DNA of 64,000 bases from Mycolicibacterium porcinum (GTDB lineage Bacteria; Actinomycetota; Actinomycetes; Mycobacteriales; Mycobacteriaceae), in contig MVIG01000024.1 in assembly GCA_002086835.1 (NCBI GenBank), positions 1 to 64,000 on the forward strand, in the 5' to 3' direction. This document shows, piece by piece, positions 2,961 through 63,433 of the stretch (its first letter is position 1; every line of letters begins with the position of its first letter). The notes under the pieces were generated by a model, which saw only the letters and a list, made by a program, of their open reading frames with translations, did not search any database and was not told the origin of the DNA. A program made the position numbers and the translations under genes.

Positions 2961-2975
2961 GAGAGTACGGTTCTC
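2961..2975. promoter_or_regulatory. GAGAAYnnnRTTCTC-type operator upstream of the SDR operon
   Basis: The site reads GAGAGT-ACG-GTTCTC, which matches 11 of the 12 fixed positions of the motif. It ends 66 nt before the SDR start at 3042, a position compatible with repression of the SDR, SDR, ferredoxin, P450 operon. The perfect copy at 63417 lies in front of a TetR gene. Confidence 0.5.
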
Positions 2976-3041
2976 ATAATCGGAAGGATGATTCTTGAGC
3001 CTTGAGAAAGTCCGGCTGCGCCCGGCGACCGGAGAACTGTC

Positions 3042-3743
3042 ATGAAGAATGCCGTCGTCACCGGAGGAGGTTCGGGCATCGGAGCGGCCATCGCTGCCCG
3101 GTTGCGCGCCGACGGCCTCAATGTCGCGATACTCGACCTGCAGCCCACGGATGACGAATTCGCCCACGTCGCCGACGTGACGGACCGGGCCGCCGTCGAC
3201 ACCGCGCTCAACGCGGTTCGCGCCCAACTCGGCCCGATCTCGGTGCTGGTCAACGCCGCCGGTCTGGACTGCTTCAAGCGCTTCACCGACGTCTCGTTCG
3301 AGAAGTGGCAGCAGATCATCGACGTCAACCTCAACGGCGTATTCCATTGCATCCAGGCGGCATTGCCCGACATGCTGGAGGCCGGCTGGGGGCGCATCGT
3401 CAATATCTCGTCGTCGAGCACACATTCGGGCCAGCCCTTCATGTCGCCCTACGTCGCGGCGAAGTCCGCGGTGAATGGCCTGACGAAGAGCCTGGCGCTG
3501 GAACTCGGCCCCAGCGGCATCACCGTCAACGCGGTCCCGCCAGGCTTCATCGACACCCCAATGCTGCGCAAGGCCGAAGGCAAGGGCTTCCTCGGCGACA
3601 CCGACAGGCAGATCGAGCAGACCCCGGTGCGGCGGATGGGCAAGCCGGAGGACATCGCCGCCGCCTGCGCCTTCTTCGTCTCCGAAGAGGCGAGCTACAT
3701 CACCGGCCAGATTCTCGGTGTCAACGGCGGCCGGAATACCTGA
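3042..3743 (+). CDS. short-chain dehydrogenase/reductase
   Basis: This classical SDR of 233 residues is a cytosolic NAD(P)-dependent alcohol/ketone oxidoreductase. TGGGSGIG (7-14) binds the cofactor, and NAAG (71-74) and the Ser about 124, Tyr137, Lys141 catalytic set are all present. The C-terminus keeps the usual ASYITGQ-x-NGG segment. It leads a rightward operon with the mycofactocin-type SDR, a ferredoxin and a P450. It may process the P450 product or a beta-hydroxyacyl-CoA. The substrate is unknown. Confidence 0.9.
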   Translation: MKNAVVTGGGSGIGAAIAARLRADGLNVAILDLQPTDDEFAHVADVTDRAAVDTALNAVRAQLGPISVLVNAAGLDCFKRFTDVSFEKWQQIIDVNLNGVFHCIQAALPDMLEAGWGRIVNISSSSTHSGQPFMSPYVAAKSAVNGLTKSLALELGPSGITVNAVPPGFIDTPMLRKAEGKGFLGDTDRQIEQTPVRRMGKPEDIAAACAFFVSEEASYITGQILGVNGGRNT

Positions 3744-3785
3744 CGCGCAGGCGCACCCGAAACATCATTGAACGAAAGGACAATC

Positions 3786-4661
3786 GTGGGAAACAGCGGA
3801 GACGGCCGGGTTGCCGGAAAAGTCGCATTCATCACCGGCGCCGCACGCGGTCAGGGCCGCAGCCACGCGATCCGGCTGGCCGAAGAGGGCGCCGACATCA
3901 TCGCCGTCGACATCTGTAAGAACTACGACACCGTCGGCTACCCGATGGCCACGGCAGAGGATCTCGAAGAGACCAAGAACTACGTCGAGAAGACCGGCCG
4001 CCGCATCGTCACCGCCCAGGCCGATGTCCGCAACGAGGCCGAGTTGCGGGCCGCACTGGAGTCCGGGCTCGCGGAGTTCGGCAAGCTCGACATCGTGGTG
4101 GCCCAGGCCGGTATCGCGGCGATGAAGGGCCAGCCCGCGATGCAAGCCTGGACCGACGGCATCAACACCAACTTCGTCGGCACCATCAACGCCATCCAGG
4201 TCGCGCTGCCGCACCTCAAGGAGGGCGCATCGATCATCGCGACCGCATCGGCCGCCGCGCTGATGGACGCGCACAGCAAGCCCAACCCTGGCGCCGATCC
4301 GGGCGGCATGGGCTACATGATCTCCAAGCGGCTCATCTCCGAATACGTGCATGCGCTGGCCACCGAACTGGCCGTGCGCGGCATCCGCGCCAACGTGATC
4401 CACCCCACCAACTGCAACACCAACATGCTGCAGAGCGAGCCGATGTACCGCTCGTTCCGGCCGGACCTGGAGAACCCGACCCGTGCCGACGCCGAGCCGG
4501 TGTTCGGTGTGCAGCAGGCCATGAAGGTCAACTTCATCGAGCCCGAGGACATCAGCAACGCGGTGCTGTGGCTGGCCTCCGACGAGGCCCGTTACGTCAC
4601 CGGAATGCAGCTGCGGGTCGACGCCGGCGGCTACCTCAAGTGGTACGACTACCACGTCTGA
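3786..4661 (+). CDS. mycofactocin-coupled SDR (carveol-dehydrogenase type)
   Basis: This 291-residue SDR belongs to the class that holds NAD tightly and passes electrons to mycofactocin. Family marks are TGAARGQGRSHA (17-28), the insertion after VDIC (about 41-60), Tyr177/Lys181, and the RANVIHPTNCNTNM segment. The family oxidises secondary or allylic alcohols, with carveol the named example. I chose GTG at 3786 because AAAGGA ends 5 nt before it; an in-frame TTG at 3768 has no such site. The ferredoxin and P450 downstream suggest it oxidises the alcohol the P450 makes. Its closest relative in the window is 7733-8611. Confidence 0.9.
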   Translation: MGNSGDGRVAGKVAFITGAARGQGRSHAIRLAEEGADIIAVDICKNYDTVGYPMATAEDLEETKNYVEKTGRRIVTAQADVRNEAELRAALESGLAEFGKLDIVVAQAGIAAMKGQPAMQAWTDGINTNFVGTINAIQVALPHLKEGASIIATASAAALMDAHSKPNPGADPGGMGYMISKRLISEYVHALATELAVRGIRANVIHPTNCNTNMLQSEPMYRSFRPDLENPTRADAEPVFGVQQAMKVNFIEPEDISNAVLWLASDEARYVTGMQLRVDAGGYLKWYDYHV

Positions 4662-4694
4662 TCCACACTGAGTGATTCGAAAGGAGTTGTCGTA

Positions 4695-4889
4695 GTGAAG
4701 GTTTCGGTCGATGCCAGCCGTTGCCAGGGACACACCCTGTGCTCGATGATCGCGCCCGACTCGTTCGTTCTCGACGACGTCGATGGTCACGCGTCACCGG
4801 TTTCGGACGTGGTACCCGCGGATCAGGAGGACACGGTCCGCGAGGCCGCGCACTCCTGCCCCGAGCAAGCCATCGTCATCGAAGATTGA
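4695..4889 (+). CDS. small ferredoxin partner of a P450
   Basis: This 64-residue ferredoxin of the mycobacterial P450-associated type probably carries a [3Fe-4S] cluster. The ligand pattern is C-Q-G-H-T-L-C near the N-terminus and a late C-P. The variable position that replaces the fourth Cys is His here. It starts at GTG behind GAAAGGAG and lies 30 nt upstream of the P450 it most likely feeds. It acts in the cytosol as a one-electron carrier from a ferredoxin reductase that is not next to it. Confidence 0.9.
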   Translation: MKVSVDASRCQGHTLCSMIAPDSFVLDDVDGHASPVSDVVPADQEDTVREAAHSCPEQAIVIED

Positions 4890-4919
4890 CGCAGACCGAA
4901 TACCAAGGGAGACAACGCC

Positions 4920-6284
4920 GTGAGTATCGACCGTGATGTCGTTACCGACGACGACCGCAAGAAGAACAAGTACCACTTCGACCGGCACACACCGGAGTAC
5001 CGGCTGCAGTTCGAGAAGATCACCGAGGAGATGCAGTCCCGGTGCCCGATGGCCTGGACCGACGCCTACAACGGGCACTGGGTGGCCGCCGACAGCAAGC
5101 ATGTCTTCGAGCTGGCCCGCTGCCCCGTCGTCTCGAATCATCACGACATCAGCGGGGAGACGCCTTACCAGGGCATCACCATCCCCAAGGCCAGCCGCGC
5201 CACCGTCGTTCGCGGCGGCATCCTGGAGATGGACGAACCAGAGCACAGCGCCTACCGCGGCGCCCTGAATCCGTATCTGTCGCCGGCCGCGATCAAGCGG
5301 TGGGTGCCCTTCGTCGACGAGATCACCCGGGCCGCGCTCGACGAGCACATCGAGTCGGGCGAGATCGACTTCGTCGAGCATCTGGCCAACGTGGTGCCCG
5401 CGGTGTTCACCCTGGCCATGATGGGCATCGAGCTCAAGAAGTGGAATGTGTACAGCGAGCCCACCCACGCCTCGGTGTACACCCCCGAACACTCCCCCGA
5501 TCGCGAGAAGATCAACGAGCAGCATCGCGAGATGGGCATCGACATCATCAACAACATGATGGAGATCCGGGAAACCCCGCGGCCCGGGCTGGTCAACGCG
5601 ATGCTGCAGTTGCGCATCGACGGTGAACCGGCACCGGACATGGAGATCCTCGGGAATCTGGGTCTGGTGATCGGCGGCGGGTTCGACACCACGACCGCCC
5701 TCACCGCCCATGCTCTGGAATGGCTGGGCGAGCACCCCGATGAACGCACCCGACTGAGCAACGAACGCGCCACCCTGCTCGACCCGGCCACCGAGGAGTT
5801 CCTGCGCTTCTTCACGCCCGCACCCGGGGACGGACGCACGTTCTCCGAGGACGTCGAGGTCGAGGGTCAGCAGTTCAAGCAGTACGAGCGACTGTGGCTG
5901 TCCTGGGCGATGGCCAACCGCGACCCGTCGGTGTTCGAGAAGCCAAACGAGATCATCCTGGACCGGAAGGGCAACCGGCACTTCAGCTTCGGGATCGGGG
6001 TACACCGGTGCGTTGGGTCGAACGTGGCCCGGACGGTGTTCAAGTCGATGCTCACGGCGGTGCTCGACCGGATGCCGGACTACGTGTGCGACCCCGAGGG
6101 CACCGTGCACTACGACACGATCGGCGTCATCCAGGGCATGCGGAACCTTCCGGCCCGGTTCACCCCGGGCAAGAAACAGGGCCCCGGCCTGGACGAAACC
6201 CTGGAGAAGTTGCAGCGCATCTGCAATGAGCAGGAGCTGGCCCGGCCGATCACCGAGCGCAAGGAAGCCGCCGTCATCGACTGA
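4920..6284 (+). CDS. cytochrome P450
   Basis: This 454-residue bacterial class I P450 is a monooxygenase. The heme thiolate is Cys364 in FSFGIGVHRCVG. The I-helix reads GGGFDTTT with the Asp-Thr pair needed for O2 activation, and the ExxR motif is EFLR. It has about 40 extra C-terminal residues rich in charge compared with the other P450s here. It is last in an operon with its ferredoxin and two SDRs, so hydroxylation followed by alcohol oxidation is the natural reading. The substrate is not deducible. Confidence 0.94.
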   Translation: MSIDRDVVTDDDRKKNKYHFDRHTPEYRLQFEKITEEMQSRCPMAWTDAYNGHWVAADSKHVFELARCPVVSNHHDISGETPYQGITIPKASRATVVRGGILEMDEPEHSAYRGALNPYLSPAAIKRWVPFVDEITRAALDEHIESGEIDFVEHLANVVPAVFTLAMMGIELKKWNVYSEPTHASVYTPEHSPDREKINEQHREMGIDIINNMMEIRETPRPGLVNAMLQLRIDGEPAPDMEILGNLGLVIGGGFDTTTALTAHALEWLGEHPDERTRLSNERATLLDPATEEFLRFFTPAPGDGRTFSEDVEVEGQQFKQYERLWLSWAMANRDPSVFEKPNEIILDRKGNRHFSFGIGVHRCVGSNVARTVFKSMLTAVLDRMPDYVCDPEGTVHYDTIGVIQGMRNLPARFTPGKKQGPGLDETLEKLQRICNEQELARPITERKEAAVID

Positions 6285-24847: not shown

Positions 24848-24862
24848 GAGAATAGCATTCTC
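24848..24862. promoter_or_regulatory. perfect GAGAATnnnATTCTC operator
   Basis: GAGAAT-AGC-ATTCTC is an exact 6-3-6 palindrome 35 nt upstream of the acyl-CoA dehydrogenase pair. It equals the site in front of the TetR gene at 63489 at all fixed positions. Confidence 0.65.
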
Positions 24863-24970: not shown

Positions 24971-24985
24971 GAGAACTATGTTCTT
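24971..24985. promoter_or_regulatory. GAGAAYnnnRTTCTC-type operator for the amidohydrolase operon
   Basis: GAGAAC-TAT-GTTCTT contains the perfect inverted repeat AGAAC-TAT-GTTCT. It lies 106 nt before the TTG start of the amidohydrolase and faces rightward. With the site at 24848 it gives each side of this divergent region its own copy. Confidence 0.5.
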
Positions 24986-25091
24986 GCCATAGAAGAATAT
25001 GGATCTAGACTGGCTGTAAGATCCGGCGCAGCAGTCACGCCGTCGTCAGCGCGTGCACAGCTCGTTCCCGGACGGACATCGGAGGACAGCC

Positions 25092-26228: not shown

Positions 26229-26247
26229 GTATCTGAGGGAGGCCTTC

Positions 26248-38309: not shown

Positions 38310-38323
38310 TGCGGCCGGCCCGG

Positions 38324-38620: not shown

Positions 38621-38635
38621 TACGAAACTCTTTCT

Positions 38636-40227: not shown

Positions 40228-40242
40228 AAGAATAGGATTCTC
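40228..40242. promoter_or_regulatory. GAGAAYnnnRTTCTC-type operator, second copy
   Basis: AAGAAT-AGG-ATTCTC matches 11 of 12 fixed positions and lies 118 nt upstream of the P450 start. Two sites about 89 nt apart could allow cooperative binding. Confidence 0.5.
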
Positions 40243-40400: not shown

Positions 40401-40435
40401 TTCCAACCGGCCAATCCGTTGTTAAAGTGCCGAAT

Positions 40436-41092: not shown

Positions 41093-41108
41093 ATTCGGAG
41101 GACCCCCG

Positions 41109-48976: not shown

Positions 48977-48991
48977 TACTTCTCCCTAGCG

Positions 48992-50149: not shown

Positions 50150-50171
50150 TGGAATTCTCCGCTTCTGTTGA

Positions 50172-51425: not shown

Positions 51426-51429
51426 AGGG

Positions 51430-52188: not shown

Positions 52189-52203
52189 AGGTCTGGATAT
52201 CTC

Positions 52204-53394
52204 CTAGTAGCTCTTGGGCAGGCCGAGAACGTTCGCGCTGAGGAAGTTCAGGATCATCTCCTGGCTCACCGGTGCGATCTTCATCAGTCGGGACTCCCGG
52301 AAGAACCGGGAGATGTTGTATTCCTCGGAGTAACCCATCCCGCCGTGGGTCTGCAGTGCGCGGTCGGCCGCGCCGAACCCGGCGTCGGCACAAAGGTATT
52401 TGGCCATGTTGGCCTCGCGACCACACGGCTTGCCGTTGTCGTAGAGCCACGTCGCCTTGCGCAGGATCAGTTCGGCGGCATCCAGGCGGGCCAGTGAGTC
52501 GGCGAGCGGAAACTGGATGCCCTGGTTCATGCCGATCGGCCGGTCGAACACCACGCGTTCGTTGGCGTATTTGACCGCGCGGTCCAGCGCCACCCGGCCG
52601 ATGCCGAGGGCCTCGGCGGCGATCAGCATCCGCTCCGGGTTGAGCCCGTGCAGGATGTACTTGAACCCGTTGCCCTCCTCGCCGATCCGGTGCTCGGCAG
52701 GCACTCGCAGGTCGTCGATGAACAACTCGTTGGAGCTCACCGCATTCCGTCCCATCTTGTTGATGGGACGGATCTCGACGTGGTCGCGGTCGAGGTCGGT
52801 CAGGAACAGCGTGAGCCCCTCGGTCGGCTTGCCACCGCGCTTCTCCACGTCCTCACGGGACTCCGTGCGGGTGAGCAGCAGGATCTTCTCGGACTCAAGC
52901 GCCTTGGAGATCCACACCTTGCGGCCGTTGACCACATAACTGTCGCCATCCTTCTTGGCGAAGGTGGTGATGCGCGAGGTGTCCAGGCCTGCGCCCGGTT
53001 CCGTGACGCCGAAGCACACATGCAGGTCGCCGTTGACGATGCGCGGGAGCGTCGCCTGCTTCATCTCCTCGGAGCCGAACACCACCACCGGCTGCATCCC
53101 GAAGATCGACATGTGGATCGCGCTGGCGGCATTCATGGCTCCGCCGGAGCGGGCCACTTCCTCGGCCAGGATGGTGGCCTCGGTGATGCCGAGGCCGTGG
53201 CCCCCGTACTCCTCGGGAATGGTCATCCCGAGCCAGCCCCCGCCTGCGATGGCGTCGTAGAACTCCTGCGGGAACTCGTGGGCCTGGTCCTTGGTCATCC
53301 AATAGTGATCGTCGAACTTGCCCGCCAGCTCCGCCACCGAACTGCGGATCAGCTGCTGGTCCTCGGTCAACTCGAAGTTCATACCGCCCGACAC
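52204..53394 (-). CDS. acyl-CoA dehydrogenase
   Basis: This 396-residue acyl-CoA dehydrogenase has GVTEPGAGLDTSRITT, VNGRKVWISKA, THGGMGYSEEYNISRFF and ends MILNFLSANVLGLPKSY. Where most relatives have EGT or GGT near the C-terminus this one has PVSQE, an unusual active-site edge. GTG at 53394 lies 9 nt after AGGAG; ATG at 53382 is the alternative. Second gene of the leftward operon. Confidence 0.9.
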   Translation of the reverse strand: MSGGMNFELTEDQQLIRSSVAELAGKFDDHYWMTKDQAHEFPQEFYDAIAGGGWLGMTIPEEYGGHGLGITEATILAEEVARSGGAMNAASAIHMSIFGMQPVVVFGSEEMKQATLPRIVNGDLHVCFGVTEPGAGLDTSRITTFAKKDGDSYVVNGRKVWISKALESEKILLLTRTESREDVEKRGGKPTEGLTLFLTDLDRDHVEIRPINKMGRNAVSSNELFIDDLRVPAEHRIGEEGNGFKYILHGLNPERMLIAAEALGIGRVALDRAVKYANERVVFDRPIGMNQGIQFPLADSLARLDAAELILRKATWLYDNGKPCGREANMAKYLCADAGFGAADRALQTHGGMGYSEEYNISRFFRESRLMKIAPVSQEMILNFLSANVLGLPKSY

Positions 53395-53436
53395 GTGTGT
53401 GCTCTCCTATTTTTCTCGGCCGAGATGTCTCGGCGT

Positions 53437-54732
53437 TCAGTCTCGCGCGCCGGCAACGGCTTTGGCGTTCGCCTGGAAGTCGGCGAACGTGGTACCGGTC
53501 TTCTCCTTGTGACTCAGCGCGCGGATCGCCACGTCGTGCCCCTCGGCGGCCTTGCGCAGCGCTCCGACGGTGGCCTGGTCCTTGGGTACGTGTGCGAACG
53601 GCTCGAAGTGGTAGAGCCGCATCGCGTTTTCGTGGGTGATCTTGTTGATCTCGTCGTCAGGGACGTCGTAGGTCTCGAACACGGCGTGCAGTTCTTCGGG
53701 GGCGCCCGGCCACATCGAGTCCGAGTGCGGGTAGTCCATCTCCCAGCAGATGTTGTCGACGCCGATCTCATGCCGGTTCTTCACCCCGACCGGGTCGGAG
53801 ATGAAGCAGGTCATGAAGTGCTCCCGGAAGACCTCGGAGGGCAGCTTGCCGCCGAAGTCCTGATGGGTCCACGTCGAGTGCATGTCGTAGGTGCGGTCCA
53901 CCCGGTCCAGGAAGTACGGAATCCACCCGGTGCCCCCCTCGGACAGCGCGATCTTGAGACCGGGGTACGCCTTGATCGGCGCCGACCACAACAGGTCCGC
54001 CGCGGCCTGGACGATGTTCATCGGCTGCAGCGTGATCATCACGTCCATCGGCGCGTCCGGTGCCGTGATCGCCAACTTGCCCGACGACCCGATGTGCACG
54101 TTCATCACCGTGTCCGTGTCGACCAGGGCCTCCCACAACGGCTTCCAGTACTCCAGGTCGTGGAATGACGGGTAACCCAATGTTGACGGGTTCTCGGTGA
54201 AGGTCAGCGAGTGCACGCCCTTCTTCGATACCCGACGCACTTCGTCGGCGCACAGCTGCGGGTCCCAGATCGCCGGGATGGCCATCGGGATGAACCGCCC
54301 CGGATTCGACCCGCACCACTCGTCGATGTGCCAGTCGTTGTAGGCCTGTACCAATGCCAACGAGAACTCGTCGTCGTCGGTGGCGAACAACCGGGCGGCG
54401 AACCCGGGGAAGGAGGGGAAGTTCATGGTCGCCAGCACACCGCCGGCGTTCATGTCCTTGACCCGTTCGTCCGGGTCGTAACAGCCCTTACGGATCTCAT
54501 CCAGCCCCTGCGGCTCCAGGCCGTACTCCTCCTTGGGGCGGCCGGCCACCGCGTTGAGTGCCACGTTCGGGATCACGGTGTCCCGGAACTGCCAGGTGTC
54601 GCTGCCGTCCGGGTTGTGCACCAGCCGCGGTGCCTCGTCACGGTATTTGGCCGGCAGATGGTTCTTGAACATGTTCGGCGGTTCGATGATGTGGTCGTCG
54701 ACGCTGATCAAGATCATGTCGTCTTTGCGCAC
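53437..54732 (-). CDS. amidohydrolase family 2 metal-dependent hydrolase
   Basis: This 431-residue enzyme is of the same superfamily as those at 25092 and 26248. It has ISVDDHIIEPP as N-terminal metal region, VNVHIGSSG, IALSEGGTGWIPYFLDRVD and CWEMDYPHSDSMWPG with the late Asp. GTG at 54732 follows GGAG by 7 nt and gives the family-typical start; the frame opens at 54759. It is the first gene of the leftward operon, which ties ring or amide hydrolysis to beta-oxidation. Confidence 0.87.
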   Translation of the reverse strand: MRKDDMILISVDDHIIEPPNMFKNHLPAKYRDEAPRLVHNPDGSDTWQFRDTVIPNVALNAVAGRPKEEYGLEPQGLDEIRKGCYDPDERVKDMNAGGVLATMNFPSFPGFAARLFATDDDEFSLALVQAYNDWHIDEWCGSNPGRFIPMAIPAIWDPQLCADEVRRVSKKGVHSLTFTENPSTLGYPSFHDLEYWKPLWEALVDTDTVMNVHIGSSGKLAITAPDAPMDVMITLQPMNIVQAAADLLWSAPIKAYPGLKIALSEGGTGWIPYFLDRVDRTYDMHSTWTHQDFGGKLPSEVFREHFMTCFISDPVGVKNRHEIGVDNICWEMDYPHSDSMWPGAPEELHAVFETYDVPDDEINKITHENAMRLYHFEPFAHVPKDQATVGALRKAAEGHDVAIRALSHKEKTGTTFADFQANAKAVAGARD

Positions 54733-54764
54733 TGTCTCGCTCCGTTCCTCGGCCGTCACATTGG

Positions 54765-54779
54765 TTCTCTATGAGAGAA
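54765..54779. promoter_or_regulatory. perfect palindrome upstream of the amidohydrolase
   Basis: TTCTCT-ATG-AGAGAA is an exact 6-3-6 palindrome 33 nt upstream of the leftward amidohydrolase start. It uses the same half-site letters as GAGAAYnnnRTTCTC but in the opposite order, so it is either a variant or a different regulator's site. Confidence 0.4.
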
Positions 54780-54909
54780 AACTAGCTTCTCCATTCGAGA
54801 GAATCAATGTCTGAGCCCGCTGACATGGAGATTTAGCCAGGTCACCACACAACCTGGCGCGTTCTTGTTGACCATCGCGGCAAAAGATGGAAACCTCTTA
54901 GTCGGAAAT

Positions 54910-54924
54910 GAGAACCCGATTCTC
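54910..54924. promoter_or_regulatory. GAGAAYnnnRTTCTC operator, ring-oxygenase operon
   Basis: GAGAAC-CCG-ATTCTC matches all 12 fixed positions. It lies 45 nt before the first gene of the rightward operon that encodes the Rieske oxygenase. Confidence 0.6.
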
Positions 54925-54968: not shown

Positions 54969-55499
54969 GTGCGCTTGGCCCCCTTGCCCGCCGAGGAGTG
55001 GGACGACGACGTGCGACGCGCACTGTCGGTGATGCTTCCGGAGGAGCGGCTCAATCCCGAGGGAGCGGGAACCGCGCTGTCGACGCTGGCCCGCCACCCC
55101 GCGCTGACAAAGGCATTCCTGCGGTTCAGCAATCATCTGCTGTTCCGTTCCACGCTGGACCCACAGATGCGTGAGCTCGCCATCCTGCGGATCGCCCACC
55201 GTAAGCAATGCGAGTACGAGTGGACCCACCACGCTTTCATCGGCAAGTCAGAAGGACTCACCGATGAACAGATCGCGAGCAGCACGAGCGGCGAAGGCTC
55301 CAGCGCGCTCGACCAACTGGTGCTCGACTCCGTCGACGAACTCGATGGGCAATCGGAGATCTCGGACGGCACCTGGGCCGCCCTGAGCGAGCACCTCGAC
55401 GAACGCCAGCGCATGGACCTGGTCTTCACAATCGGCGGCTACGGCCTGATGGCCATGGCCTACAACACCTTTGGAATCGCGCCGGAATCCGGCCACTAA
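54969..55499 (+). CDS. carboxymuconolactone-decarboxylase-like protein
   Basis: This 176-residue AhpD/CMD-fold protein has ELAILRIAHRKQCEYEWTHH, the active-site helix of the family, with one Cys (Cys81) and the following His. Without a CxxC pair it is more likely of the decarboxylase/lactone type than an AhpD peroxidase partner. GTG at 54969 lies 9 nt after AGGAG; ATG at 54942 is possible. It leads the Rieske oxygenase operon. Confidence 0.82.
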   Translation: MRLAPLPAEEWDDDVRRALSVMLPEERLNPEGAGTALSTLARHPALTKAFLRFSNHLLFRSTLDPQMRELAILRIAHRKQCEYEWTHHAFIGKSEGLTDEQIASSTSGEGSSALDQLVLDSVDELDGQSEISDGTWAALSEHLDERQRMDLVFTIGGYGLMAMAYNTFGIAPESGH

Positions 55500-55524
55500 C
55501 TCAAGAAGAAAGTAGAGGTAGATG

Positions 55525-56904
55525 ATGGCGTTCTTCCCGAAGCCGGCTGCCGGCAGCTGGACCGAGAACTGGCCCGAACTGGGCACCGGCCCGGTCAACT
55601 ACGAGGATTCGATCGATCCCGAGCACTGGAAACTGGAGCAGCAGGCCATCTTCCGCAAGACCTGGCTGCAGATGGGCCGGGTGGAGCTGATTCCCAAGAA
55701 GGGCCGGTACATCACCCGCGAACTGCCGTCGGTCGGGCCAGGCACCTCGATCATCATCGTCAACGACGGCGAGCAGATCCGCGCCTTCTACAACCTGTGC
55801 CGCCACCGCGGTAACAAGCTGGTGTGGAACGACTACCCGGGCGAAGAGGTCTCCGGCAGCTGCCGGCAGTTCGTCTGCAAGTACCACGCCTGGCGTTACG
55901 ACCTCAAGGGCGATCTGACGTTCATCCAGCAGGAGCAGGAGTTCTTCGACGTCGACAAGGCCGACTACCCGCTCAAGCCGGTGCGCTGCGAAGTGTGGGA
56001 GGGCTTCATCTTCGTCAACTTCGACGACGACGCGGTCTCACTCGAGGAGTACCTGGGCGAATTCGCCGAGGGCCTCAAGGGTTATCCCTTCCACGAGATG
56101 ACCGAGCACTACAGCTACCGCTCGGAGATCAAGGCCAACTGGAAGCTGTTCATCGACGCGTTCGTCGAGTTCTACCACGCGCCGATCCTGCACATGAAGC
56201 AGGCGGAGAAGGAGGAAGCCGAGAAGCTGGCCAAGTTCGGATTCGAGGCGCTGCACTACGACATCAAGGGCGATCACTCGATGATCTCGTCCTGGGGTGG
56301 CATGAGCCCGCCCAAGGATCTGAAGATGGTCAAGCCCATCGAGCGCATCCTGCACAGTGGTCTGTTCGGGCCGTGGGATCGCCCCGACATCAAGGGCATC
56401 CTGCCCGACGAGCTGCCGCCTGCGATCAATCCGGGCCGGCACTCGACGTGGGGCCAGGACTCTTTCGAGTTCTTCCCGAACTTCACCCTGCTCTTCTGGG
56501 CGCCGGGCTGGTACCTCACCTACAACTACTGGCCCACCGGGGTGGACAGCCACATCTTCGAGGCCGACTTGTACTTCGTGCCGCCGAAGAACCTGCGCGA
56601 GCGGCTGTCCCAGGAACTGGCCGCTGTGACGTTCAAGGAGTACGCATTCCAGGACGCCAACACGCTGGAAGCCACCCAGACGCAGATCGGCACCCGCGCC
56701 GTACTCGACTTCCCGCTCTGCGATCAGGAAATCCTGCTGCGCCACCTGCACCACACCGCACACAAGTACGTCGACCGGTACAAAGCGACCAAGGCCGCCG
56801 GGGCGAGCGCAGCGACGGGGAATGATGACGGGAATGGCTCGACCAACGGCAAGCACGCCGCCCAGAGCGAGAAGGCCGCAGAGAAGGATGCCGCAAATGT
56901 CTAA
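55525..56904 (+). CDS. Rieske non-heme iron oxygenase, catalytic alpha subunit
   Basis: This 459-residue aromatic-ring-hydroxylating-type oxygenase has Rieske ligands C92-R-H94 and C118-x2-H121 and mononuclear iron His218 and His223 (FYHAPILH). A low-complexity tail rich in Ala, Lys, Asn and Gly follows from about 420. It adds O2 or removes methyl groups from a ring or quaternary amine. No reductase lies next to it; ferredoxins elsewhere in the window may serve. ATG at 55525 gives better spacing to GAGG than ATG at 55522. It overlaps the small gene downstream by 8 nt. Confidence 0.92.
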   Translation: MAFFPKPAAGSWTENWPELGTGPVNYEDSIDPEHWKLEQQAIFRKTWLQMGRVELIPKKGRYITRELPSVGPGTSIIIVNDGEQIRAFYNLCRHRGNKLVWNDYPGEEVSGSCRQFVCKYHAWRYDLKGDLTFIQQEQEFFDVDKADYPLKPVRCEVWEGFIFVNFDDDAVSLEEYLGEFAEGLKGYPFHEMTEHYSYRSEIKANWKLFIDAFVEFYHAPILHMKQAEKEEAEKLAKFGFEALHYDIKGDHSMISSWGGMSPPKDLKMVKPIERILHSGLFGPWDRPDIKGILPDELPPAINPGRHSTWGQDSFEFFPNFTLLFWAPGWYLTYNYWPTGVDSHIFEADLYFVPPKNLRERLSQELAAVTFKEYAFQDANTLEATQTQIGTRAVLDFPLCDQEILLRHLHHTAHKYVDRYKATKAAGASAATGNDDGNGSTNGKHAAQSEKAAEKDAANV

Positions 56905-57226
56905 GTTGCCTGAAGAATTCGCCGACCTGGAGCGGTTCAGCGACTGGTGCCTGCCCACCGAGGGGGAGCGCTATCAGAAGCGTCTCAACTCGTCGATGGA
57001 AGAGATGCAGGAGCTCTACGACGCCGGTATGGCCCGCCTCGAGGACATCATGGTCTACGTCGATGCCCGCTTCCCGCTGGCGGGCATGCCGGACGACGCC
57101 AAGGCGCTGGTGCATCTGGGCCAGTCGATCGTCCAGGTCAGCTTCCCGGTCGAGGTGTGGAAGCAACCGAGGGTGCTCGACAGCGGTGCTGCCTACATCA
57201 ACCTCATCAAGGAGCCGGTGGTTTAG
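56897..57226 (+). CDS. small protein following the Rieske oxygenase (109 aa)
   Basis: This 109-residue acidic, helical protein starts MSKLPEEFADLERFSDWCLPTEGERY and continues with EMQELYDAGMARLEDIMVYVDARFPLAG. I do not recognise a family. It has no cofactor motif and does not look like the cone-shaped beta subunit of ring hydroxylases, which is larger. The 8-nt overlap suggests an accessory or second subunit of the oxygenase. Confidence 0.7.
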   Translation: MSKLPEEFADLERFSDWCLPTEGERYQKRLNSSMEEMQELYDAGMARLEDIMVYVDARFPLAGMPDDAKALVHLGQSIVQVSFPVEVWKQPRVLDSGAAYINLIKEPVV

Positions 57227-57228
57227 TC

Positions 57229-58458
57229 GTGTTGACCCTCAAGGCTGCGGGTCTTGTCGACGTCGATGCCGGGACGATCATTCGTCCCGGCATTGTCCGT
57301 GTCGATGGAGACCGAATTGTCGGCGTCGGAGAACGCGCGGCAGGCGAGAGCGACGAAATCATCGATCTGGGCGACTCCTACCTCCTGCCCGGCCTGATGG
57401 ACATGGAAGTCAACCTGCTGATGGGCGGCCGGGGCGAGAACCCGGGTCTGTCCCAGGTGCAGGACGATCCCCCGACCCGGGTGCTGCGGGCAGTGGGCAA
57501 TGCGCGCCGCACCCTGCGCGCGGGGTTCACCACCGTCCGCAACCTCGGATTGTTCGTCAAGACCGGCGGATACCTGCTCGACGTCGCCCTGGGTAAGGCC
57601 ATCGATGCCGGCTGGATCGACGGCCCCCGCATCATCCCGGCCGGCCACGCCATCACCCCCACCGGCGGACACCTGGATCCGACCATGTTCGCGGCGTTCA
57701 TGCCGGGCGTGCTGGAGCTGACCATCGAGGAGGGAATCGCCAACGGGGTCGACGAGATCCGCAAGGCGGTGCGCTACCAGATCAAGCACGGCGCCCAGCT
57801 GATCAAGGTCTGCTGCTCGGGCGGCGTCATGTCGCTCACCGGCGAGGCCGGGGCACAACATTATTCGGACGAAGAACTGCGCGTCATCGTCGACGAGGCA
57901 CACCGGCGCGGGCTGCGCGTGGCGGCCCACACCCACGGTGCCGAGGCCGTCAAGCACGCGGTGGACTGCGGTATCGACTGCATCGAACACGGCTTCCTGA
58001 TGGACGACGAAGCGATCCAGATGCTCGTCGACAACGACCGGTTCCTGGTCACCACGCGCCGCCTGGCCCAGGCCATGGACGTGTCGAAGGCACCGAAGGT
58101 GCTGCAGGACAAAGCTGCCGAGATGTTCCCGAAGGCCGAGACGTCGATCAAGGCGGCGTACGAGGCCGGGGTGAAGATCGCGGTCGGCACCGACGCCCCG
58201 GCCATCCCGCACGGCAAGAACGCCGACGAGCTCGTCACGCTGGTCGAATGGGGCATGCCACCGGCAGCGGTACTGCGCTCGGCCACCACCATCGCCGCGG
58301 ATCTGATCAACGTCACCGACCGCGGCCGGCTCGCCGAAGGCCTCCTCGCCGACATCATCGCGGTGCCCGGTAACCCACTTGAGGACATCAGCGTTACACA
58401 GAATGTAGATTTTGTAATGAAAGGCGGTAAGGTCTTCCGCAATGAGCACATCAACTGA
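57229..58458 (+). CDS. amidohydrolase (imidazolonepropionase-like) without the HxH motif
   Basis: This 409-residue amidohydrolase-superfamily barrel has the fold signature LLPGLMDMEVNLLMG, but Glu60 and Asn62 stand where the family has the two His of HxH. Other ligands appear kept: Lys193 (LIKVCCSGGV), His234 and His236 (AAHTHG), His254 (CIEHG) and Asp322 (VGTDAP). The enzyme may be mononuclear or use a different first metal site, as with no change elsewhere it does not look like a decayed gene. GTG at 57229 lacks a well-placed Shine-Dalgarno and lies 2 nt after the previous stop. Confidence 0.85.
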   Translation: MLTLKAAGLVDVDAGTIIRPGIVRVDGDRIVGVGERAAGESDEIIDLGDSYLLPGLMDMEVNLLMGGRGENPGLSQVQDDPPTRVLRAVGNARRTLRAGFTTVRNLGLFVKTGGYLLDVALGKAIDAGWIDGPRIIPAGHAITPTGGHLDPTMFAAFMPGVLELTIEEGIANGVDEIRKAVRYQIKHGAQLIKVCCSGGVMSLTGEAGAQHYSDEELRVIVDEAHRRGLRVAAHTHGAEAVKHAVDCGIDCIEHGFLMDDEAIQMLVDNDRFLVTTRRLAQAMDVSKAPKVLQDKAAEMFPKAETSIKAAYEAGVKIAVGTDAPAIPHGKNADELVTLVEWGMPPAAVLRSATTIAADLINVTDRGRLAEGLLADIIAVPGNPLEDISVTQNVDFVMKGGKVFRNEHIN

Positions 58459-58888
58459 TTCCCCGACGCGGACCGAGGATCTGATCGAGATCCAGCAGGT
58501 GCTCGCCAAATACGCGGTGACCATCACCCAGGGCGACATCGACGGCTTGATCAGTGTTTTCACTCCTGACGGCACGTACAGCGCATTCGGCGAGACCTAC
58601 ACGCTCAATCGCTTCCCGGTACTCGTGGATGCCGCCCCCAAGGGACTGTTCATGACCGGCACCGCCCTCATCGACCTGGTCGAGGGGGCTGATACCGCGT
58701 CAGGCACCCAGCCGCTGTGCTTCATCGAGCACTCCAAGCACGACATGCGGATCGGCTACTACCGCGACACCTACGAGCGCACCGCCGAGGGCTGGCGGCT
58801 GAAAACACGTGCAATGACGTTCATCCGGCGCAGTGGCGACCACGACCACGGCCGGCCCCACGCGATCGGCAGGCCGGAAGCCGGATGA
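58442..58888 (+). CDS. SnoaL-like (NTF2-fold) protein
   Basis: This 148-residue SnoaL-like protein has DLIEIQQVLAKYAVTITQGDIDGLISVFTPDGTYSAFG, the usual first helix pair and strand. Members are cyclases, hydratases or isomerases, or bind small molecules. It overlaps the amidohydrolase by 17 nt and the next acyl-CoA dehydrogenase by 4 nt. A hydratase or isomerase role in the pathway is possible. Confidence 0.82.
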   Translation: MSTSTDSPTRTEDLIEIQQVLAKYAVTITQGDIDGLISVFTPDGTYSAFGETYTLNRFPVLVDAAPKGLFMTGTALIDLVEGADTASGTQPLCFIEHSKHDMRIGYYRDTYERTAEGWRLKTRAMTFIRRSGDHDHGRPHAIGRPEAG

Positions 58889-60030
58889 GCGAGCGAACGG
58901 CAGATCGGAACGCCCTGTTCGATACCGCGACTTTCCGCGCGGCACTACAGGATTGGCTCGCCGAGAATGACCTGACGCCGCCGGACGACCATTCTCTGGA
59001 AGGACACATCCGGCAGTTCGCCCGCGTGCAGAAGGCGCTGTACGCCGGCGGCTGGAGCCGCTACGGCTGGCCCGAGCACGCCGGCGGGCTGGGCGGTCCG
59101 GAGATGCTCCGCGCCATCGTCGGCGAGGAGGTCGTGGGCCGCAGGCTGGCCGAACCCGGCCCGTATTCGATGCTGGAAGTGCTGGCACCGACGATGATCG
59201 ACTATGCGCCAAAGGAACTGGCCGCCGAGATGGTGCCGAAATTGCTGTCCGGCGAAGAGCAGTGGTGCCAAGGGTTCTCCGAGCCCGGCTCGGGCAGTGA
59301 CCTGGCCTCGCTGACCACCCGCGCAGTCCAGCGCGAGGACGGCAAGTGGATCGTCAACGGTCAGAAGGTCTGGACCAGCTTCGCGCAGTACTCGCACCGC
59401 TGCATCCTGCTGACCCGCACCGGTGATGCGGACACTCCCAACCACCAGGCGATCACGGCGTTCTTCGTCGACACCGACTCCCCCGGCATCACCATCCGGC
59501 CACTGCGCACCATGCACGACGTCGACGAGTTCTGCGAGGTGTACTTCGACGACGTCGAGGTCGACGCGAGCCGGATGCTCGGCAAGCCGGGCGACGGCTG
59601 GCAGCTGGCGATGGACCTGCTGCCGTACGAGCGTTCGACGTGTTTCTGGCAGCGCATCGCGTACCTGTACTCACGGTTCGACGCCCTCGTCGAAGCGGTG
59701 AAACGGCAAGGGCAGGTGGTGGATCCAGACCTCGGCGAGGCCTACCTGGCCCTGCACACGCTGCGCTGCCGTTCGGCGGCGACTCAGCACCGGCTGGCCG
59801 AGGGTCAGAAGCTCGGTCCGGACACCTCGATCGACAAAGTGCTGCTGGCGAGTGCCGAACAGCTGCTGTATGACACCGCGCGCAATCTGATGCCCGGCGT
59901 CATCGAGCTCGAGGACTCCGAATGGCGCACCGAGTACCTGTATTCGCGGGCGTCGACCATCTACGGTGGCACGGCCGAAGTGCAGCGCAACATCATCGCG
60001 CGCCGGCTGCTCGATCTCGGGAAGGAGTGA
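58885..60030 (+). CDS. acyl-CoA dehydrogenase, larger subunit of a pair
   Basis: This 381-residue acyl-CoA dehydrogenase has GFSEPGSGSDLASLTT, VNGQKVWTSFAQYSHRC and STIYGGTAEVQRNIIARRLL. Gly replaces the medium-chain catalytic Glu. It lies 3 nt upstream of a shortened partner, the same arrangement as 22633/23809, and is probably the FAD-binding half of a heteromeric enzyme. Confidence 0.9.
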   Translation: MSERTADRNALFDTATFRAALQDWLAENDLTPPDDHSLEGHIRQFARVQKALYAGGWSRYGWPEHAGGLGGPEMLRAIVGEEVVGRRLAEPGPYSMLEVLAPTMIDYAPKELAAEMVPKLLSGEEQWCQGFSEPGSGSDLASLTTRAVQREDGKWIVNGQKVWTSFAQYSHRCILLTRTGDADTPNHQAITAFFVDTDSPGITIRPLRTMHDVDEFCEVYFDDVEVDASRMLGKPGDGWQLAMDLLPYERSTCFWQRIAYLYSRFDALVEAVKRQGQVVDPDLGEAYLALHTLRCRSAATQHRLAEGQKLGPDTSIDKVLLASAEQLLYDTARNLMPGVIELEDSEWRTEYLYSRASTIYGGTAEVQRNIIARRLLDLGKE

Positions 60031-60033
60031 GGC

Positions 60034-60840
60034 GTGACCGATTTGGATACCGAATCGCTGGGCCTGCTCGAAGAAGCGCTCCGCAAGACCATGCTGTCGA
60101 CCTCGGGCGCCAAGCTGGACGCCGCCCTGGCCGAGCTCGGCTGGAGCGAGATGCTCTCCGACATGCCGGAGGTCGCGCTGCCGCTGGTGTTCCGGCTGCT
60201 GGGCGAAACAGGCTCGCACGCGTCGATTCTCAACGACGTGCTGCTCGAGACCATCGGCGGGCTACCCGGCGGCACCCCGCCCATGCCCTATGCCGGCGGC
60301 ACCTGGGTGGTGTGGGAACGCGAGGATCGGTCGGACGGCGCCAACCAGACAATGGGCGGCCTACCCCTGCGGCAGGTGCCCGACGGCCAGCTGCTGCGCA
60401 TCTCGGAGGCACGCCGCGCCCTGGGCTGGTGGCTGGTCGGGTCCGCCCGCGCGATGCTGGCCCTGGCTCGACAGCATGCCCTCGACCGGGTCCAGTTCGG
60501 CAAGCCCATCTCGTCCTTCCAGGCCGTACGGCACCGGCTGGCCGAGACACTGGTGGCCATCGAAGGTGCCGAGGCCACGCTGAGCCTGCCTGGCGCGGAC
60601 AATGTCGACCTCAACTCGCTGCTGGCCAAGGCCGCCGCGGGCAGGGCCGCGCTGACCGCGGCCAAGCATTGCCAACAGGTGCTCGGCGGCATCGGCTTCA
60701 CCGAAGAGCACGAGCTGCACCACCACGTGAAGCGGGTACTCGTCCTCGACGGGCTGTTGGGCAGCTCAAGGGAACTCACCCGCAAGGCCGGCGCCGGTCT
60801 CCGCGCCCGAGGGACCGTCCCCCGCCTGGCCCAGCTGTAG
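60034..60840 (+). CDS. acyl-CoA dehydrogenase, reduced partner subunit
   Basis: This 268-residue protein keeps the C-terminal helical domain of acyl-CoA dehydrogenases (SARAMLALARQHALDRVQFGKPISSFQAVRHRLAETL, QQVLGGIGFTEEHELHHHVKR), but its N-terminal and middle domains are much shortened. It is about 70 residues shorter than the partner at 23809. Being a structural half in an alpha2beta2 enzyme explains it better than decay, because the frame is intact and coupled to 58885. Confidence 0.85.
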   Translation: MTDLDTESLGLLEEALRKTMLSTSGAKLDAALAELGWSEMLSDMPEVALPLVFRLLGETGSHASILNDVLLETIGGLPGGTPPMPYAGGTWVVWEREDRSDGANQTMGGLPLRQVPDGQLLRISEARRALGWWLVGSARAMLALARQHALDRVQFGKPISSFQAVRHRLAETLVAIEGAEATLSLPGADNVDLNSLLAKAAAGRAALTAAKHCQQVLGGIGFTEEHELHHHVKRVLVLDGLLGSSRELTRKAGAGLRARGTVPRLAQL

Positions 60841-60980: not shown

Positions 60981-60996
60981 AGAACGACGCTCGCCG

Positions 60997-62484
60997 CTAC
61001 GACGAGTCCGCAACAGGTTCGGCGAAGACGGTGGCCGTCGAGCGGCCGCGCAGCACCGTCGAGCCGCGGACCACCCAGTGCTGCCCTTCGTCGGCATCGG
61101 CACAGGCCAGCGCGCTTCCCGAACACAACACGGTCGATTCGCGGTCCTTCGCGTGGTCGGCCAGCCGCGCCGCCTCGTTGACGGCGTCGCCGATCACGGT
61201 GTACTCGTACCGGTTCTCGGCACCGATGTTGCCGGCGAACACCGAGCCGCAGGAAATGCCCACGCCGAACTCCACATCCGGCAGTTGATGCAGCCGTGGC
61301 ACCAGCGCCCGGGCCGTGGCCAGGGCCGAGGAGGCCGGGTTGTCCAGCCGCAGCGGCGCACCGAAGACGGCGAGCACCGCGTCACCCTCGAACTTGTTGA
61401 TCAGGCCGTGATGCCACTCGACGGTGTCCACCACGATCTTGAAGAACCCGTTGAGCAACTGCGCGACTTCCTGGGGTGGGCGCGATGCGCCCAGGGCCGT
61501 GGAGCCGACCAGATCGACATAGAGAACCGCTGCCTCCCGGACGTCACCGGTGACCGCTCCGCCCTGCTGCAGCGCATGGCGGGCCACGTCGACCCCCACG
61601 TAGCGACCGAACAGGTCCCGCAACCGATTCCGCTCGGCGAGGCCGGCCAGCATCCGGTTGAAACCAGACTGGAGCCGGCCGATCTCCGACGACTCGTACA
61701 CCTTGACCGAGACGCCGGACCAGCCCCGTTCGACGGCTTTCATGGCCAGCACGACCTCGCCGACCGGGTCCGACACCGACCGCGCCACCAGCACCATCGA
61801 CCGAAGTCCGAAGACCAGCGAGATGACGGCCACCACCAGCACCGGCGCCTCGACCGGCGCCGTCTCCTGTACGAACCAGCCATTGGAGCGCGCCAGGACG
61901 ATCAAGGCGATACCGGCCAGGGGCAGCCCGCTGAACAGGGTCCAGATGGTGACCAGCCGGGCGAGCACGCCGGGCATCCGCACGATCGTGGACGAGGATG
62001 CGGTCAGCGACGCGGCCACGATCGGTCGCAACATCCGTTGCGTCACCAGGAATCCCATGCAGGCCGCCGCGATTCCGCCGAAGAGAATCGCGCCGCCCAT
62101 CACGTACGCGACGCCTCCCCCGACGTCGAGGTTCAGCAGCGTGTACACGAGCGCGCTCACCGCCCAGGTGGTGAACTGGATGATGGTCTGACGAGGCGCG
62201 ATTCGCATGGCGGCGCGCTGCTGTTGCGGCGTCGGATTCTCCCCCGCGGCAAACCATTTGAACGTCGGATGGACGTTCACCCACCCCACGATCGTGTCGA
62301 CGATCGCCGCCGCGACCATCAGTGCGATCAGCGCGACCAGATTCGCCTGCGTCATCAGCTGACGCGCGTCGCCTACCGTGTTGCGGCTCAGCGCCAGTAC
62401 GACGAGCGTCACGGCGGCCGCCGCGGTGGTCTGCGCGTAGATCTGCCTGGCCGCGTAACTGACGCTGAGCCGGATCGCCCCCAT
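60997..62484 (-). CDS. membrane-bound class III adenylate/guanylate cyclase
   Basis: This 495-residue protein has six predicted transmembrane helices (residues about 15-230), a HAMP linker (ARSVSDPVGEVVLAMKAVERG) and a C-terminal class III cyclase domain. That domain has the metal-binding Asp in LYVDLVGST, a second in NKFEGDAVLAVFG, and YTVIGDAVNEAARL with the transition-state Asn and Arg. The layout matches the mycobacterial HAMP-cyclase group. It makes cAMP or cGMP at the inner membrane face. It converges on the acyl-CoA dehydrogenase pair and follows a crotonase-like gene. Confidence 0.92.
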   Translation of the reverse strand: MGAIRLSVSYAARQIYAQTTAAAAVTLVVLALSRNTVGDARQLMTQANLVALIALMVAAAIVDTIVGWVNVHPTFKWFAAGENPTPQQQRAAMRIAPRQTIIQFTTWAVSALVYTLLNLDVGGGVAYVMGGAILFGGIAAACMGFLVTQRMLRPIVAASLTASSSTIVRMPGVLARLVTIWTLFSGLPLAGIALIVLARSNGWFVQETAPVEAPVLVVAVISLVFGLRSMVLVARSVSDPVGEVVLAMKAVERGWSGVSVKVYESSEIGRLQSGFNRMLAGLAERNRLRDLFGRYVGVDVARHALQQGGAVTGDVREAAVLYVDLVGSTALGASRPPQEVAQLLNGFFKIVVDTVEWHHGLINKFEGDAVLAVFGAPLRLDNPASSALATARALVPRLHQLPDVEFGVGISCGSVFAGNIGAENRYEYTVIGDAVNEAARLADHAKDRESTVLCSGSALACADADEGQHWVVRGSTVLRGRSTATVFAEPVADSS

Positions 62485-62500
62485 CTTCAGAGGCCCGGGC

Positions 62501-63283
62501 CTACTTGATGTTCTGCTTCATTCCGTCGATATCCATCAGTACCGGCCATCCGCTGACGCTAAGCGCATTGCCGTGCCCGGTCTGGTGAATGTCGAACACC
62601 GATTGGATCGCGGCGTAGAAACCCTGTACGTCGAGGGTCTGATTGACGGCCCGCTTGGCCTGGCGGAGCGCGAACGCCGGCATCTGCGCGATCTGCGCGG
62701 CCAGCTCGGCCGTCTGGGCATCGAGTTCGTCGCGCGGCACCACCCGGTTGACCATGCCGGTGCGCTCGGCTTCCTCCGCGGTCAGCGCCCGGCCGGTGAA
62801 CAGGATCTCCTTGGCCTTGCGGGCACCGAGCTCCCAGGTGTGGCCGTGATACTCGACACCGCCGATGCCCATCAGCGCCACCGGGTCGGAGAACAGCGCG
62901 TCGTCGGCGGCCAGAATGAGATCGCACGGCCAGCAGAGCAGCAGGCCGCCGGAGATGCAGCGCCCCTGGACCGCCGCGATCGACGGTTTGGGCACGTTGC
63001 GCCACCTCAGCGTGTACTCGAGATAGCGCCGCGACTCGTGCTCGATGAGGAATTCCAGCGTGATCTTGTCCGGCACCGGCCCACCACCGCGCAGGTCATG
63101 CCCCGCGGAGAAGTGCTTGCCGTTGGCGCGCAGCACGATCACCTTCACCTCGCGGTCGTCGGCAGCCCTGGTCCAGGCGGCGTCGAGCTCATCGAGTAGT
63201 TCCGGGTTCTGGGCATTGGCCGCTTCCGGCCGGTTGAGCGTGATCGTGGCGACCGAATCGGCGACGTCGTAGTCGATGTACAC
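62501..63283 (-). CDS. crotonase-fold protein without hydratase glutamates
   Basis: This 260-residue enoyl-CoA hydratase/isomerase-superfamily protein has the oxyanion segments KHFSAGHDL and GRCISGGLLLCWPCD. The two Glu of true hydratases are replaced: Leu115 in ISGGLLL and Val135 in SDPVALMG. An isomerase, hydrolase or C-C bond activity is therefore more likely than hydration. GTG at 63283 follows GAGGG by 6 nt. It diverges from the TetR gene and has the perfect GAGAAT/ATTCTC site in its promoter region. Confidence 0.87.
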   Translation of the reverse strand: MYIDYDVADSVATITLNRPEAANAQNPELLDELDAAWTRAADDREVKVIVLRANGKHFSAGHDLRGGGPVPDKITLEFLIEHESRRYLEYTLRWRNVPKPSIAAVQGRCISGGLLLCWPCDLILAADDALFSDPVALMGIGGVEYHGHTWELGARKAKEILFTGRALTAEEAERTGMVNRVVPRDELDAQTAELAAQIAQMPAFALRQAKRAVNQTLDVQGFYAAIQSVFDIHQTGHGNALSVSGWPVLMDIDGMKQNIK

Positions 63284-63402
63284 GTGTGTCCCTCTGTTCA
63301 GAGCTGCCCCGTGATGCGGGCCCTCGGAGCCGCGGCAGCGACGCGAAACAACGTCCCGGCGGCGCCAAATTTGATGTGAAACCCTTCTTCTCAAAGGACT
63401 TC

Positions 63403-63433
63403 TATAATTCCCCTCATGAGAATACTATTCTCA
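63403..63433. promoter_or_regulatory. TATAAT box and perfect 17-bp operator of the TetR gene
   Basis: TATAAT at 63403-63408 is followed by TGAGAATACTATTCTCA (63417-63433), an exact 7-3-7 palindrome. Placed just after the -10 box, it would let a bound repressor block transcription. I see no good -35 hexamer. This is the best copy of the motif in the window. Confidence 0.65.

Follow-up and report, generated by a model that had tools for sequence, protein, structure and literature searches.

A TetR-family regulator gene and a recurrent, putative palindromic operator across a catabolic island of Mycolicibacterium porcinum

We analysed the first 64,000 bases (hereafter the window) of contig C20 (MVIG01000024.1; 81,348 base pairs, bp) in the 6.96-Mb genome of Mycolicibacterium porcinum, and focused on a 15-bp palindrome, GAGAAYNNNRTTCTC, and on the TetR-family gene that lies beside one of its exact copies. 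This gene encodes P0001, a regulator of 239 amino acids (aa) matching the Pfam family TetR_N; it starts at 63489 on the forward strand and runs beyond the window end at 64000 to position 64208 of C20. Counting mismatches against GAGAAYNNNRTTCTC, we found the palindrome exactly at three places in the window (24848, 54910 and 63418) and with one mismatch at four others (2961, 24971, 40139 and 40228), while two-mismatch copies lay at 2806 and 30767.

The exact operator at 63418–63432 occupies the divergent promoter of P0001 and a reverse-strand crotonase/enoyl-CoA hydratase gene (62501–63283; NF006140, 396 bits against a cut-off of 280), and a degenerate second copy with three mismatches stands 22 bp from it at 63440–63454. 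The exact operator at 54910–54924 separates two operons. The reverse-strand one (47828–54732) encodes an Amidohydro_2 protein, an acyl-CoA dehydrogenase, a short-chain dehydrogenase/reductase (SDR), a CoA-transferase III, a thiolase and a further acyl-CoA dehydrogenase; the forward-strand one (54969–60840) encodes a CMD-domain protein, a Rieske oxygenase alpha subunit, the product of 56897–57226, an Amidohydro_1 protein, a SnoaL-like protein and two acyl-CoA dehydrogenase-type proteins. Three degenerate copies in 22-bp steps (54755, 54777 and 54799; 54755–54813 in all) lie at the promoter of 53437–54732. The third exact operator (24848–24862) is in the divergent promoter between an acyl-CoA dehydrogenase pair (22633–24768, reverse strand) and amidohydrolase genes (25164–28687, forward strand: two Amidohydro_2 proteins and two further genes), and 24971–25007 is spanned by a one-mismatch operator together with a degenerate copy that follows at 22 bp (24993). 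The one-mismatch operator at 40139–40153 is 29 bp upstream of a CYP150-type P450 gene, in a reverse-strand set (37392–40110) that also encodes a small protein and a luciferase-like oxidoreductase. Another one-mismatch copy (40228–40242) is found nearby, as is a forward-strand set (40427–44430) encoding a second TetR (P0002), an acyl-CoA dehydrogenase, an APH-type kinase and a zinc alcohol dehydrogenase. The remaining copies lie upstream of a forward-strand SDR–SDR–P450 operon at 3042–6284 (one mismatch, 2961–2975), upstream of a reverse-strand aldehyde dehydrogenase and CoA-transferase III operon at 92–2775 (a weak pair at 2806 and 2828, 2806–2842) and upstream of 30816–32471 (two mismatches, 30767–30781).

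The seven copies with at most one mismatch compare with a mean of 0.22 in first-order Markov sequence, and by our gene calls all seven were intergenic on a contig that is 93% coding. Up to three mismatches, the window held 70 copies where 49 were expected, and the maximum over 100 shuffles was 65. We confirmed the window-wide operator set that had been described in a sequence-only reading of this DNA: every site on its list was present, and its perfect 7-3-7 site at 63417 is our site 63418. That reading had four of the listed copies matching at all fixed positions, which is correct for 54910, whereas 24971, 40139 and 40228 each carry one mismatch. Its placement of the sites within about 120 nucleotides of the first gene of an operon held for most of them, and failed under some start-codon choices at 24971 and 40228.

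A motif search over the whole genome showed that promoter enrichment extends well beyond the window. The genome contained 11 exact copies versus none for a reversed-pattern control, and 55 versus 2 when one mismatch was allowed. All 11 exact copies were intergenic, and they were clustered on four contigs (five on C20, two on C23, three on C24 and one on C37). On the stretches of these island contigs that we examined, 18 of the 20 sites with at most one mismatch were intergenic. Outside the island, eight of nine one-mismatch matches examined (from about 35) fell within genes; these matches are thus mostly background. In a relative, G020, counterparts of the C24, C20, C23 and C37 sites occur in order on one 5.7-Mb contig. 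The distance there from the site after the TetR gene to the counterpart of C24:6899 is about 23 kb, matching the 17.1 + 6.9 kb found here, which suggests that the end of C20 adjoins the start of C24. A plasmid origin of the island was rejected: megablast of 40000–64000 returned no plasmid covering 80%, a tblastn search with the TetR matched no plasmid, and the G020 region sits on that 5.7-Mb contig.

We examined 60 exact sites with their neighbours in seven other genomes, and many lay at orthologous promoters, often with different spacer bases. Within the window, the promoter at 24848 had an exact site in G020, G016, G073, G060, G142 and G234, and that at 54910 in the same six and in G171. The TetR promoter site was found in six genomes; the divergent gene was the crotonase in G020 and an acyl-CoA dehydrogenase in G060, G142, G016 and G073. 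At the CYP150-type P450 promoter (40139) the site was exact in G016 and G073, with one mismatch in G020 and two in G060 and G142. Synteny, which the sequence-only reading had named as a check, thus bears out exact sites at the 24848, 40139, 54910 and 63418 promoters in other species of the genus. Weaker sites were kept less widely: 24971 had a matching one-mismatch site in G016 and G073; 2961 was kept with the same off-consensus G in both species examined (G073 and G016), which also had a two-mismatch copy in the same place as 2806; 30767 had a counterpart in two of five species examined (G020 and G142) and none in G016, G073 or G060; and 40228 had no counterpart in G020, G016 or G073. In five genomes an exact site precedes an APH-type kinase gene whose product is about 50% identical to that of 42407–43432.

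Beyond the window, exact sites recurred at the FadD–FadE–FadE/ferredoxin promoter (C24 18189; seven genomes), the amidohydrolase and FadD promoter (C23 57207; seven), the thiolase–MeaB/SDR promoter (C24 12043; five, three of which have the site immediately in front of the MeaB gene), the promoter between a hydrolase–FAD monooxygenase–LigB set and an IclR regulator (C24 6899; two) and the KorAB 2-oxoacid:ferredoxin oxidoreductase promoter (C37 260821; two). Some sites of the relatives were without counterpart here, and some sites here (e.g., C23 29729) were not seen in the seven relatives. No site with at most one mismatch was found at the promoter of the C23 Mce operon.

The operator was often a 22-bp tandem, 37 bp overall. 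At the TetR promoter a second conserved block (63440), present in and outside the genus, is the degenerate copy 22 bp off. Ten of 18 intergenic sites in this genome had a second copy (at most five mismatches) at 22 bp; in the same test, offset 21 gave 6, and the other offsets had a mean of 1.13 and a maximum of 4 outside 21–22. Pairs totalling at most six mismatches numbered 18 at 22 bp, 17 of them intergenic, versus a mean of 3.2 and a maximum of 9 for other spacings. Across 71 regulon sites from this genome and the seven relatives, many of them orthologous and therefore not independent, 22 bp on either side was the commonest offset at all three cut-offs. Such a tandem could place a pair of dimers on the same side of the DNA helix. 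In all 14 cases from the 55994, thiolase and hydrolase promoters, the operator stood about 13–31 bp upstream of the start codon, as would be expected of a repressor site.

The site was also conserved at the promoter of the TetR gene itself. Of 377 TetR loci found, the best 80 were examined as genus loci, and all 80 had an exact site 70–71 bp upstream of the TetR start, and 65 had at least one further site (at most one mismatch) at variable spacing, 600–1100 bp past that start. Outside the genus, 29 of the 30 best-scoring loci had an exact site at the TetR promoter, and the thirtieth, from the site-poor genome G643, had a one-mismatch site. Around the 29 sites the spacer was 77% and the flanks 55% conserved; the arms were 100% conserved by selection, only exact matches having been aligned, and we did not use this as evidence. 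Of three TetR loci examined in site-poor genomes outside the genus, that of G477 had an exact site in front of the gene and those of G493 and G390 had a two-mismatch site. In another genus (g23), we found 17 second or third TetR copies, 16 of them 56–69% and one 73% identical to P0001, and all retained a QSLR-(S/T)-FY core. An exact site stood in front of 10 of the 17, and a site with at most one mismatch in front of 13. Within g23, the 7-Mb genome G459 carried three TetR copies alongside 18 exact sites, which suggests regulon expansion via TetR duplication.

The presence of P0001 tracked the presence of the motif across genomes. In a genus set of 297 genomes, a P0001 ortholog (E 7.1e-87 or better) was found in 236 of 237 genomes with at least five exact sites versus 9 of 60 with four or fewer (Fisher p = 8.5e-47, a value that ignores relatedness). 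Of the 52 genus genomes that lack P0001, 51 had no more than four copies of the motif. For other genera, the number of sites was the sole basis for choosing genomes (44 of the 52 that had six or more, and 36 of the many with zero to two), and these were searched at E 1e-25, the best match of each genome being 3.1e-99 or better. Here P0001 was found in 40 of 44 site-rich versus 5 of 36 site-poor genomes (p = 9e-13, again ignoring relatedness). It occurs in eight other genera of the family.

We concluded that the TetR at 63489 very likely owns GAGAAYNNNRTTCTC as its repressor, a judgment that draws on sequence comparisons. The suggestion that one repressor, probably this TetR, runs a dispersed catabolic regulon is supported by motif enrichment, by co-occurrence in and outside the genus and by the site at the gene's own promoter. 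The refuting outcome named in the sequence-only reading, a lack of promoter enrichment over controls, did not occur. The adjacency of gene and operator by itself proves little, because TetR_N matches number at least 150 in this genome. P0001 matches TetR_N (PF00440) at 31 bits (cut-off 24) and has a single such domain; the closest named loci, at 97–99% identity, come from Mycolicibacterium peregrinum, M. houstonense, M. senegalense and relatives. Its AlphaFold model, of middling confidence (predicted local distance difference test score 72.8), has an all-helical, two-domain fold. Among the 50 structural matches listed, this model aligned to TetR structures with template modelling scores of up to 0.65 over the query. 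The nearest folds to the model include YvdT, FadR, EthR2, KstR2 and AibR, and FadR and AibR structures with acyl-CoA occur among the listed neighbours.

From these data we infer the following mechanism. A P0001 dimer would bind the near-perfect copy of GAGAAYNNNRTTCTC, and at many promoters a second dimer would probably bind the degenerate copy two helical turns (22 bp) off. The ligand-free repressor would sit over the promoter or start-site region of some 10–15 transcription units in addition to its own gene. It would be released when a pathway intermediate, most probably an acyl-CoA thioester, binds the C-terminal domain, so that genes for activation, oxygenation, beta-oxidation and ring cleavage would be switched on in concert. 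We think it probable that the substrate is a hydrophobic ring compound of terpenoid- or steroid-like character and that its breakdown proceeds through CoA thioesters.

Several observations weigh against the assignment of the motif to P0001. Four of the 44 site-rich genomes from other genera have no P0001 (G507, G522, G542 and G562), and five of the 36 site-poor ones have it (G477, G493, G643, G390 and G369). In the genus, G147 has nine sites and only a distant P0001 homolog (its assembly is in 700 contigs and 93% complete), and nine genomes retain a P0001 ortholog despite four or fewer exact sites. Eight of these nine were examined: the exact site at the TetR promoter was kept in G290 and G056, one mismatch had arisen in G177 and two in G089 and G026, and G063, G286 and G205 had no site with at most two mismatches within 1.5 kb of the TetR. 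In those last three the helix-turn-helix core of the protein is almost unaltered despite the absence of a site. G063, G286, G026 and G177 carry a remnant cluster of thiolase, acyl-CoA dehydrogenase or amidohydrolase genes beside the TetR, and genomes of this kind may represent decayed regulons; nonetheless, site-poor genomes that bear the TetR weaken any strict one-to-one claim. Four of the 17 extra g23 TetR copies have no upstream site at two mismatches or fewer. A pooled test for a −10 element within the operator gave no strand bias (38 versus 38 of 76), and we rejected the idea that every operator hides a gene-directed −10 box. Lastly, an association across relatives is not independent, and a linked second regulator would also track the motif.

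Such a second regulator is the alternative that survives best, although we consider it unlikely. That is, another island regulator (P0002, the double TetR P0003, P0004, the IclR protein at C24 7008 or the LuxR-type protein at C20 77258) might bind the motif, with the TetR at 63489 a target only. Several regulators do adjoin sites, and P0001 persists in genomes that have lost theirs. However, in a panel of 14 site-rich genomes, drawn from genomes known to carry P0001 and covering P0002, P0003 and P0004, we found P0004 in 11, P0003 in 7 and P0002 in 5, versus P0001 in all 14 (at the E-values used). These three TetRs, missing from 3, 7 and 9 genomes, respectively, were rejected as owners of the motif, with which they co-occur less well than P0001 does. 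Moreover, the site at the CYP150 promoter is kept in G016 and G073 though P0002 was not found there, and the exact sites in front of extra g23 TetR copies also argue against P0001 being a mere target.

It is rather improbable that P0001 binds the motif as an activator or dual regulator. Some sites are far from gene starts, such as that at the KorAB promoter (about 240 bp), but many lie about 13–90 bp upstream of start codons, and TetR proteins are usually repressors. We regard as highly improbable the proposal that the motif serves as a promoter element, or forms a structural palindrome, instead of being a repressor operator. Many copies do contain a −10-like TANNNT, which points toward the gene in 80 of 80 genus TetR promoters and is steady in orientation at 55994 (8 of 8) and at the FadD promoter C24 16753 (8 of 8). 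Yet it is missing in that direction at the acyl-CoA dehydrogenase pair (0 of 7), orthologous promoters share exact sites whose spacer bases often differ, and genomes without the TetR have few copies. The −10-like TATAAT that immediately precedes the TetR operator in this genome was found in only 14 of the 80 genus loci and in none of the 29 outside the genus.

On C20, C23, C24 and the C37 stretch, we found no intergenic copy of the KstR motif TnnAACnnGTTnnA (one lies inside a C24 gene) and no copy at all of AAGCAAGnnCTTGCTT, which we take to be the KstR2 motif, though the looser CAAGnnCTTG occurred once between genes (C20:75424). Both regulators were rejected as owners on the absence of their motifs between genes of the regulon contigs examined. 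That the sites belong to KstR or KstR2 is scarcely credible, for although the half-site AGAAY resembles KstR's TAGAAC-N2-GTTCTA (PMC1995591) and the gene types overlap steroid catabolism, the spacer here is 3 and not 2, and none of the six Protein Data Bank (PDB) sequence matches of P0001 is named KstR.

To our knowledge, few mycobacterial TetR operators are known. The identification of TetR motifs is described as being at an early stage (PMC4482099), and the motifs that Balhana and others give for 30 conserved TetR proteins are presented as logos, whose letters could not be compared with ours. GAGAA did not appear in the accessible text of that paper or of PMC3388012. We found no description of this regulon in the open-access literature searched, most subscription papers lying outside the search. 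The nearest likeness is to KstR, for which the published motif is TnnAACnnGTTnnA and whose own promoter carries TAGAAC-N2-GTTCTA (PMC1995591). Like KstR, P0001 would be an autoregulated TetR acting through one palindromic operator, with a related half-site AGAAY and a position near the −10 region, on many dispersed lipid or steroid catabolic operons. The two systems differ in spacer (3 here, 2 in KstR), in the outer bases (G/C here, T/A in KstR), in the frequent 22-bp tandem here and in the gene set, which here includes a CYP150-type P450, the Rieske/CMD operon and KorAB.

Other TetR proteins were also compared. KstR3 of Mycolicibacterium neoaurum is likewise a mycobacterial, catabolic TetR, but it is described as controlling the small atf1-chsH4-chsE6 operon that contains it, a target of a different kind, and the text examined gave no operator motif (PMC10398937). 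Mce3R is a TetR-type repressor linked to lipid catabolism, but it is a double TetR with a non-palindromic operator (PMC11667970), whereas P0001 has a single TetR_N. A protein that does resemble Mce3R in layout lies in the window: P0003 (19762–21081, forward strand), 439 aa with two TetR_N domains. MftR is also a mycobacterial TetR, with targets induced by long-chain acyl-CoA, but its operator is TN2GGCAN5TGCCN2A and its target the mycofactocin gene cluster (PMC8728441). FadR-type TetRs, which control fatty acid degradation in response to acyl-CoA, appeared with the closest structural neighbours that the PDB search gave, at about 20% identity to P0001. New here are the tandem operator and a regulon that extends well outside the window.

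The P450 genes offered a lead on the substrate. The best solved structure for the P450 at 38830–40110 was CYP150A6 (503 bits). The P450 at C23 62663 matched CYP150A6 at 716 bits, and its nearest site with at most one mismatch (C23 64021) lies past its 3′ end. A third P450 (C20 73303) has CYP105Q4 as its closest match (670 bits); downstream of the exact site 77188, it forms part of a run of genes on the same strand. In M. marinum, CYP150A5 converts beta-ionone to 4-hydroxy-beta-ionone; its gene lies in a P450–ferredoxin stretch (Mmar_4716 to Mmar_4763) together with CYP105Q4, for which the same source reports no substrate found (PMC6237146). Relatives of both families occur in the present island, although the title of that paper frames the M. 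marinum ferredoxins as partners in secondary metabolism, while the P450s here are in a catabolic island. Because CYP150A5 acts on beta-ionone and the regulon includes acyl-CoA dehydrogenase pairs, CoA ligases and a LigB set, the data suggest a cyclic, perhaps isoprenoid, substrate, which we offer as a lead and not as a result.

Additional features of the island were noted. A protein with an adenylate/guanylate cyclase catalytic domain is encoded directly downstream of the crotonase (60997–62484, reverse strand), and a Nuo51-like FMN/iron-sulfur protein (29209–30504, forward strand) has homologs in the same place in relatives. The exact site C20:77188 lies between an alpha/beta hydrolase gene and a regulator gene with hydrolase and LuxR-type domains. 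Elsewhere on C20, L016:4957-7374 (C20:66305-68722) encodes a fused double CoA-transferase III protein of 805 aa in two stretches. On the island contig C23, our gene calls gave an exceptionally long open reading frame of about 3,080 aa (C23:37873-47121). A MeaB-type GTPase gene is in the operon with the exact site at C24 12043, and C24:20641-22646 (L022:641-2646) encodes a two-subunit B12-dependent acyl-CoA mutase, at whose promoter no site with at most one mismatch was seen. This mutase is closest by score to 2-hydroxyisobutyryl-CoA mutase; we rejected that function, given methylmalonyl-CoA mutase-like residues at two specificity positions, the numbering of which is presumed.

Tentatively, and with the balance tilting slightly against us, we propose that this is an apparently undescribed counterpart of the KstR system, found across the genus and at least eight others, in which one TetR and a 37-bp tandem operator govern a conserved pathway for a cyclic isoprenoid-like compound, and that in one other genus the TetR was duplicated and the network widened to as many as 18 sites. 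If true, orphan P450s of the CYP150 and possibly CYP105Q families would gain physiological roles and would be linked to beta-oxidation, ring cleavage and 2-oxoacid:ferredoxin oxidoreductase. The analysis provides a single regulator, a precisely defined operator and a list of targets ready to test. By tying P450s of uncertain role to one catabolic island, it also leaves a narrower field in which to look for their substrates. Because the regulator occurs in eight other genera, the identification of one ligand would annotate a pathway in hundreds of genomes, and the system might also serve as a biosensor.

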